A DNA stretch of 34,397 nucleotides from Methanomassiliicoccaceae archaeon. GTDB taxonomy: Archaea; Thermoplasmatota; Thermoplasmata; Methanomassiliicoccales; Methanomethylophilaceae. Below the pieces are notes generated by a model. That model ran no database searches, was not told where the DNA came from, and saw only the letters and a list, made by a program, of their open reading frames with translations. Position 1 is the stretch's first letter, and every line of letters starts with the position of its first letter. The position numbers and the translations under genes were made by a program. Shown piece by piece: positions 3,005 to 4,056 of this stretch. The stretch spans positions 1 through 34,397 of the forward strand of contig PUJZ01000080.1 of the NCBI GenBank assembly GCA_003550345.1. Reading direction: 5' to 3'.

Positions 3005-3466
3005 TCAGCAGCCGCAGTCCGGGTCGTGGGTGTGCTCGTCGAGCCGGCAGAAGGGGTCGAAGCATTCAGGGTCGTCGCAGCCGCTGGCGCGGTGGAACTC
3101 GACCTCCAGGCTTCCTGGCAGCCCGGACGTCTTGGCGAGCAGCATCCTCTCCAGCGCTTCGGCCTCGGGGCCGTAGACTATCACATTGACAGTCATGCTG
3201 TATGACGATACCTCCCCCAGATTGCCCTTGGCCCGCACATTGCCGTCATCGGTGGTGCTGCTCAGGGACATGAAGGCGTCGCCGCACTCCACCACCGCCT
3301 TGACATGGCCGATGGACCAGGCGCCGGCCTCCACCGCGCCCAGGGTGACATCGCGGAGGAAGGAGGAGAACATCGCCTCCGCCTCCGGGCCGGCCATCGC
3401 GGGTTCGACCGCGCCGTTCAACTCCACCGCCAGCGCGGTGGGGATGAACTCCTTCTCCGCGGTCAT
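3005..3466 (-). CDS. Unrecognised protein with Cys/His-rich C-terminal metal-binding tail
   Basis: A 153-residue protein that I cannot assign to a named family. Residues 1-125 look like a compact alpha/beta domain without membrane segments. Residues 130-153 are very rich in metal ligands: Cys130, Cys135, Cys140, His145, His147, Cys151 and Cys153 within 24 residues, mixed with Asp and Pro. The ATG overlaps the stop of the upstream GTPase gene (ATGA, 3463-3466), so the two are translationally coupled. COG0523/CobW GTPases deliver metals to partner proteins, and this GTPase lacks the usual C-terminal domain. The partner could therefore be the metal-binding or target-binding half of a split metallochaperone. 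That role is inference; coupling and ligands are seen directly. Confidence 0.8.
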   Translation of the reverse strand: MTAEKEFIPTALAVELNGAVEPAMAGPEAEAMFSSFLRDVTLGAVEAGAWSIGHVKAVVECGDAFMSLSSTTDDGNVRAKGNLGEVSSYSMTVNVIVYGPEAEALERMLLAKTSGLPGSLEVEFHRASGCDDPECFDPFCRLDEHTHDPDCGC

Positions 3467-4056
3467 TCGAATATCTCCATGATGTGCTCCATGTTCACTC
3501 CCTTGTCGGCCTGGACCGCGTTCACCGGGCCGCTGTAGCCCATGGAGGCTATCCTCTCCTTGATGCTGTCAAGCTCGGCGTCGTCCACAGTGTCCTTCTT
3601 GTTGATGAGGACGAGGTCGGCGATGCCCAGCTGGTTCCGCAGCGGCCTCTCGAACATCTTCCATATCTTGGAGAACCTCTCCGCGTCTATGACCACTATG
3701 GAGCTGAGCTTGTCGATGCTTATGCCGGTGCAGTCCTGCACCGCGTTGACCACTATCTGCGGGTCGGCGATGCCGGACGGCTCGACGATGATCACGTCGG
3801 GGTCCATGTTGGCCTGGACAACGCGCACGGTGTCGATGAGCCCGGTCTTGAGGGTGCAGCAGATGCATCCGCCCTTGAGGTCCTGGACTTCAAGACCGTA
3901 TTTCCGCATGACCTCGCCGTCGATCCCCTTGTTCCCGAAGTCGTTCTCTATGACCACTATCCGGTGGCCCTTGCTCTCGTAAACGGACTCCATCATGTTT
4001 AGGATGACGGTGGTCTTGCCCACGCCCAATAATCCAGAAACCAGCACGAAGTGCAT
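3463..4056 (-). CDS. COG0523 (CobW/HypB-like) metallochaperone GTPase, short form
   Basis: A 197-residue P-loop GTPase. Seen motifs are Walker A GLLGVGKTT (8-16), the switch-like ENDFGN (37-42), the COG0523 hallmark GGCICC (62-67, CxCC metal site), Walker B region VIIVEPSG (88-95) and guanine-specificity NKKD (152-155). Family members insert or traffic Zn, Co, Ni or Fe. The usual protein is about 300-400 residues with a C-terminal CobW_C domain; this one stops right after the GTPase domain. The stop overlaps the next gene by ATGA, so the Cys/His-tailed protein may supply the missing function. A GGTGAG Shine-Dalgarno precedes the ATG. NikR is close by, but on the other strand and separated by topA, so nickel is not proven as the cargo. 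Confidence 0.9.
   Translation of the reverse strand: MHFVLVSGLLGVGKTTVILNMMESVYESKGHRIVVIENDFGNKGIDGEVMRKYGLEVQDLKGGCICCTLKTGLIDTVRVVQANMDPDVIIVEPSGIADPQIVVNAVQDCTGISIDKLSSIVVIDAERFSKIWKMFERPLRNQLGIADLVLINKKDTVDDAELDSIKERIASMGYSGPVNAVQADKGVNMEHIMEIFE

Follow-up and report, generated by a model that had tools for sequence, protein, structure and literature searches.

Probably a two-part metal-delivery machine in Methanomassiliicoccales: a short COG0523 GTPase and a partner protein with a possible metal-binding tail

The window analysed here (the whole stretch of 34,397 nucleotides, from an archaeal genome of the order Methanomassiliicoccales) carries two overlapping genes on its reverse strand, on which all window features given with coordinates in the following are located. 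Protein G (3463–4056; 197 amino acids) is a GTPase of the COG0523/G3E type consisting of the nucleotide-binding domain only, as indicated by Pfam, by its match to YjiA and by an alignment of 20 sequences. Its partner, protein P (3005–3466; 153 amino acids), has a ferredoxin-like core predicted by AlphaFold2 (about residues 10–126) and conserved in a family of homologs, and this core is followed by a tail. The four nucleotides common to both genes, GAATGACC (3463–3466), contain the stop codon TGA of G and the start codon ATG of P. The PF02492 (cobW) model matches residues 4–172 of G with an E-value of 9.3e-39 (133 bits, cut-off 20.7), and phmmer aligns G with residues 7–185 of the 318 residues of YjiA from E. 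coli (1nij; E 1.3e-18), after which G ends. The Walker A motif (GLLGVGKTT; 4009–4035), the hhhExxG motif (IIVEPSG), the NKxD motif (NKKD) and the COG0523 signature GCICC, which includes the CxCC metal motif (C64-I-C-C67; 3856–3867), are all present, and G8, G13, K14, T15, G63, C64, C66, C67, E92, K153 and D155 are invariant among the 20 aligned sequences. Judged by its sequence, G is a CobW-type COG0523 G3E GTPase.

The CobW_C domain (PF07683) is absent from the Pfam matches of G up to an E-value of 1, and up to the same value no match to it was found in the window's genome. A reading made from the sequence alone had described a GTPase that stops after its nucleotide-binding domain without CobW_C, and whose stop codon overlaps the start of the partner gene; both descriptions are borne out. 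The HypB model TIGR00073 scores 31.4 bits with G, below its cut-off of 121.2. The best NCBIfam match of G is NF041053, a CobW-related selenoprotein which, like G, is a short CobW-type protein (195 positions), but G has Cys rather than Sec codons and reaches 108 bits instead of the 180 required. A CobW-related selenoprotein family is mentioned in passages of two selenoprotein reviews (PMC9312934, PMC13188914).

The last 24 residues of P, CDDPECFDPFCRLDEHTHDPDCGC (residues 130–153; 3008–3079), comprise five Cys and two His, precisely as the sequence-only reading had counted, and the remaining 129 residues contain one Cys and two His; this tail is lineage-specific. Since a copy from the same genus is 83% identical to P, and since the differences between the two genes fall mostly on third codon positions (17, 12 and 32 at positions 1, 2 and 3, respectively; 28 codons differ silently and 26 alter the amino acid), P can be taken to be a real gene. 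Neither Pfam nor NCBIfam gives a match above cut-off, the PDB gives no convincing sequence match, and the matches of P to Gly_reductase and AZUL are weak; no recognised family was thus found for it. One member of the P family other than that of the window matches DUF7361 (9e-4), and the 12 families that any of 26 P members match at E-values up to 10, with the HMMER filters in force, do not include PF07683.

An AlphaFold2 model of the window's P, calculated with 20 sequences, has a mean pLDDT of 86.4, with block means of 92–98 over residues 11–120, and predicts the element order E-H-E-E-E-E-H-E; the tail is modelled with low confidence and no structure is assigned to it. The same order is predicted for a tail-less ortholog (L071; mean pLDDT 88.0). 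Structure searches with the P models return ferredoxin-like domains. When the second domain of YjiA (residues 216–318) is compared with the model of the window's P, a Z-score of 6.6 is obtained (r.m.s.d. 5.1, 98 aligned residues, 15% sequence identity), which is tied with the scores of unrelated ferredoxin-like folds. YjiA is not among the 50 Foldseek matches listed for this model; for the second model, that of L071, three YjiA entries appear at Foldseek ranks 9, 13 and 14 (probability 0.98–0.99), and none is among the 50 VIA matches listed. Because G covers residues 7–185 of YjiA and P resembles residues 216–318, the G–P pair seems to reproduce the layout of a single COG0523 protein.

Across 73 distinct P sequences (81 alignment rows with identical rows counted once, and with the paralogs L002 and L004 counted in set S), the sole invariant residues are G53, H54 and K56 (motif G53-H54-x-K56; 3299–3310), which the model places on the strand that follows helix 1. 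The examples of CobW_C have R-x-K-G on what appears, by visual comparison, to be the same strand, so that the GHxK of P would stand in the place of an RxKG in CobW_C; this correspondence is a visual lead only, since low-threshold profile alignments do not set K56 opposite the Lys of RxKG. A homology of P to CobW_C at the sequence level was pursued in three attempts with growing alignments and an empirical null, and was not significant: hhalign assigned a probability below 2% and a score of 20.1, which was exceeded by 3 of 48 slices of unrelated neighbour families.

P is conserved across the window's order, and G and P are kept together. A search with E-values up to 0.01 detected P in 42 of 61 relatives, with paralogs among the matches, and in 20 of the 26 genera sampled. 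The search in relatives listed 48 places with P, 30 of which were given as loci and examined for G; a few of the remaining 18 were fetched as well (L141, L168, L177–L179). In 29 of the 30 loci G immediately precedes P in the same orientation, among them L014, where only the end of G is on the contig, and L024, where G seems to be broken into two frames; the 30th locus (L016) is at a contig edge, where the sequence breaks off as P begins. A scan of genome contigs with a pattern drawn from window-type P yielded 19 loci with titled records, which overlap partly with the 30 (some are identical), and G is directly upstream of P in all of them. By title, 14 of the 19 are Methanomassiliicoccales or a family or genus thereof, four are ‘Euryarchaeota archaeon’ and one is ‘Candidatus Thermoplasmatota archaeon’. 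An overlap of four nucleotides between G and P is available in 14 of these 19 loci, a count biased upward because the script picked the start nearest to such an overlap. A locus of the same genus (L007) and a record titled Methanomassiliicoccaceae (L066) share one G sequence and have matching P. In a sample of the phylum, P occurs in 32 of 292 genomes, every one of which is listed as belonging to the window's own genus, family or order. Two P proteins searched against plasmids gave no match, and one pattern scan of viral contigs confirmed no P. CobW_C occurs in 20 of the 292 phylum genomes, in the window's family once above cut-off (G015), and in 7 of 14 control genomes, M. acetivorans being a control that is not one of these seven; passages of Haas et al. 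2009 (PMC2770081) report eight COG0523 proteins for M. acetivorans and place the C-terminal domain in ‘most’, not all, COG0523 proteins.

Besides G, the window's genome encodes four further COG0523-type GTPases. Those of L002 and L004 are each followed immediately by a P paralog, L005/P0001 (C94) is a natural fusion of a GTPase with a C-terminal domain resembling P, and L003 is a divergent copy adjoining an MtaA-type gene, with no P found beside it. Of 147 genomes of the order, 139 have a match to the fusion used as query (GTPase-only matches included), and near-full-length matches are listed in its families f1 to f6. Compared with the joint P profile, the C-terminus of the fusion yields an hhalign probability of 93% (pairwise E 3e-7, score 46.7), and compared with each of three P sets alone it yields 78–88%; among the controls, the reversed profile scores 9.9, none of 10 column shuffles exceeds 13.1 and none of 48 slices taken from unrelated families exceeds 21.3. 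The fusion domains were cut at a motif that occurs in 28 of 30 fusions, and the P paralogs of L002 and L004 were excluded from the profile ‘P_main’ and included in ‘P_all’. As judged from these profile scores, the C-terminus of the fusion is homologous to P, and the fusions inspected keep H-x-K at the invariant position (IAHVK, IVHVK or VVHVK).

We furthermore chose 40 paralog regions from the lists of relatives and of the phylum, at least four places on these lists being left aside. In 36 of the 40, P was found again, with no P at threshold in the other four, and a GTPase gene is adjacent to P on the same strand in 35 of these 36. Together with the 29 of 30 and 19 of 19 loci given above, these counts show the two genes to be conserved together, where the sequence-only reading had proposed a survey across archaea. 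The single exception (L141:2787–3275, forward strand) is an orphan P, with no GTPase found, beside genes for a Peripla_BP_2 protein and a FecCD permease, which suggests that P can work alongside metal or corrinoid import. In a tree built from 99 GTPase domains, with an arbitrary root and several long branches that meet, a supported branch (100/99) separates the CobW_C-bearing GTPases from all P-linked GTPases. The methyltransferase-linked, the His-rich and the fusion types each fall on one side of a supported branch as well, and the window-type GTPases lie outside these groups without forming one block (2 changes), one of their blocks containing the long-branched L137.

Since the same genome encodes a natural GTPase–P fusion, P is most plausibly the second half of the GTPase in detached form. 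We assign a probability of roughly two in three to the reading that G and P are two subunits of a split COG0523-type metallochaperone, in which P replaces the C-terminal domain and the tail passes the ion. The sequence-only reading had proposed that two genes do the work of one longer metallochaperone, and this proposal is well founded because the pair is conserved together and because a natural fusion is encoded both in this genome and in those of relatives; the part that it gave to the tail as a defining element is not supported. Conventional COG0523 proteins with CobW_C (YjiA, YeiR, CobW, ZigA) resemble G in the G3E domain and in GCxCC, often carry a metal-binding extension, and consist of a GTPase followed by a second domain, which is one of many ferredoxin-like domains matched by P in the fold search. 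In the pair, by contrast, the second domain is a separate gene with a sequence not recognisable as CobW_C. G is accordingly filed as COG0523 and P as a partner family without a name, and the two-gene form as a variant of the known COG0523 machinery. A description of a second-gene partner of COG0523 was found neither in the titles and abstract openings of the open-access papers listed by the searches nor in the passages of PMC2770081 consulted.

We infer that G and P form a physical complex, and the docking face, the hand-over, the client and the metal are likewise assigned by inference. In a working model, G would bind Mg-GTP, and a metal site would then form at CxCC as in CobW, for which passages of PMC7895991 describe a metal site created by Mg-GTP and likely involving CxCC. 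P, as a ferredoxin-like domain in place of the ordinary COG0523 C-terminal domain, may dock on G via the strand carrying the invariant H-x-K, and may couple metal loading to the nucleotide state, recognise the client, or both. The Cys/His tail, where there is one, would collect or buffer the ion and pass it to or from the CxCC site, and GTP hydrolysis at the client would release it. PMC7689651 and PMC2770081 describe the C-terminal domain of COG0523 proteins as variable and as the presumed site of client contact; the former adds that a His/Asp-rich region in the C-terminal domain of CobW may aid metal hand-over, and the latter that a His-rich region is present in about 40% of the COG0523 proteins analysed.

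The appendages of P vary considerably. Within the genus the Cys-rich tail is retained, in related genera of the family it takes a CDDPxCxDPxC-like form, and across the order the tail of the window type is not preserved. The appendage is elsewhere His-rich (in other families), very long or absent, and several methyltransferase-type P proteins have a His-rich stretch at the N-terminus. Four or more Cys and His follow the core in 39 of the 73 distinct P sequences (28/42, 0/18 and 11/13 in the three P sets), and 28 of the 73 have no Cys/His-rich extension at either end. Conservation of the tail among orthologs thus holds within the genus and related genera of the family and fails across the order, and it is the G-H-x-K core that is invariant, many orthologs and paralogs having His runs, an N-terminal shift or no such extension instead of the tail. 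One may tentatively envisage, as a further reading well short of an even chance, an order-wide modular system in which several GTPases each have their own interchangeable GHxK subunit, the appendages (Cys-rich, His-rich, N-terminal His, very long His/Cys, or none) were exchanged repeatedly to suit different metals or clients, and the two halves were fused in one lineage; P may then be a subunit family of its own that does not descend from CobW_C. Among the paralogs, L164:3140–3913 and L166:2962–3897 (both on the forward strand) encode P proteins with very long His/Cys-rich tails containing CHCHDH-like runs; in L166 the extension beyond the core reaches 186 residues and includes 34 Cys and 61 His. 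These are candidate metal-storage proteins.

In the window, the pair adjoins genes for C5, a QPRTase-like protein, enolase, a response regulator and topA. C5 (4127–4390, reverse strand), directly upstream of G, is a small protein with four Cys in a conserved CxCG...CxxCR pattern, likely a zinc ribbon, and matches no Pfam family; homologs are found in 12 of 20 loci (window included), some of these orthologs starting at an inner ATG. C5 is possibly part of the G–P transcript, and a zinc-ribbon client or a third subunit is a possible role for it. A crude gene grouping over the window and 19 scan loci, several of which are on contigs that end early, places topA in 17 of the 20, the QPRTase-like gene in 14, enolase in 13, RFC in 11 and NikR in 9. 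Related genes follow the pair in L078:2764–3357 and L080:5324–6760 (forward strand), the one in L080 encoding a radical SAM/SPASM protein.

NikR is a syntenic neighbour beyond topA on the opposite strand, and because of this nickel regulator the sequence-only reading had named nickel as one candidate, with cobalt and zinc equally possible. NikR_C has matches, however, in every one of the 26 genera sampled (58 of 61 genomes), six of them genera in which no P was found (P occurs in the other 20), so that NikR is no guide to the metal and the derivation of nickel from it had to be abandoned. By analogy, and weakly, zinc appears to be the likeliest ion, with cobalt next and nickel less likely; zinc is placed first because the tail is rich in thiolates and because a zinc preference of YjiA and YeiR is in print (in passages of PMC7895991).

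The neighbours of the paralogs bear on the client. Of the 42 paralog regions (the 40 chosen ones and two of the window's genome), 10 have a corrinoid-protein gene and an MtaA-type (URO-D) gene in the same orientation immediately ahead of the pair (L138, L140, L144 and L146–L152), which is reminiscent of the archaeal COG0523 subfamily 13 described beside corrinoid methyltransferases in parts of Haas et al. 2009, where it clusters with mtaA, mtaB, mtaC and ramM (PMC2770081). That the pair might serve the maturation of corrinoid-dependent methyltransferases by metal or cofactor loading, with the window's pair as a relocated copy retaining this duty, is a possibility that we regard as rather doubtful, given that the window's pair, unlike subfamily 13, sits in the topA/enolase block and that its GTPase falls outside the methyltransferase group of the tree. 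This reading concerns the client and not the split architecture.

HypA/HypB and UreE/UreG, treated in part in PMC2770081, are nickel pairs in which a G3E GTPase works with a separate metal-binding protein. P might similarly be an independent metallochaperone that feeds G transiently instead of being a detached domain, and the separate genes, the Cys/His- or His-rich tails (the very long one of L166 among them) and the orphan P beside the FecCD importer in L141 are consistent with such a role. We consider it unlikely, since a natural fusion exists in the G–P order, the invariant feature sits in the folded core and not in the tail, and 28 of the 73 P proteins have no Cys/His-rich extension; moreover, G is not HypB, P matches no family, and the fusion argues for a domain split. 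It is more improbable still that P is a metal-sensing or GTPase-regulating subunit (e.g., an exchange or activating factor) whose tail senses metal instead of delivering it: the strict G–P pairing, and the ferredoxin-like fold shared with the small regulatory PII and ACT domains found among the structural matches, would fit, but the fusion has the order of a COG0523 protein with its C-terminal domain, which is thought to face the client.

COG0523 GTPases deliver zinc or cobalt, and the role of their variable second domain is poorly known. If G and P are the two halves of one such machine, as we prefer, a natural two-gene version separates the GTPase from the second domain, and simple mixing should then allow one to measure how GTP hydrolysis and metal affinity respond to the second domain and to its metal tail. 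The pair likewise makes the archaeal COG0523 group linked to methyltransferases more accessible to study, in methanogens reliant on zinc, cobalt and nickel enzymes.

The GTPase–P fusion (P0001, C94) combines the same GTPase with a second domain homologous to that of the G–P pair, and differs from the pair in being a single chain, in having GCFC (in those inspected) and in possessing its own conserved C-terminal end. The 10 fusions inspected (L106 and relatives) have GCFC in place of GCxCC, so that the metal site may differ among groups, and their C-terminal ends are much alike (CF.P.PESP.H..FE). One genome carries two tandem G–P pairs (L178:2342–4467, forward strand), the first with GGRICC replacing GGCxCC. 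In the window's own genome, L137 (C93) is a degenerate-looking COG0523-type GTPase adjoining an MtaA-type gene and near a gene of the Prismane/CO dehydrogenase family; an ATPase in its vicinity may be CooC-like.
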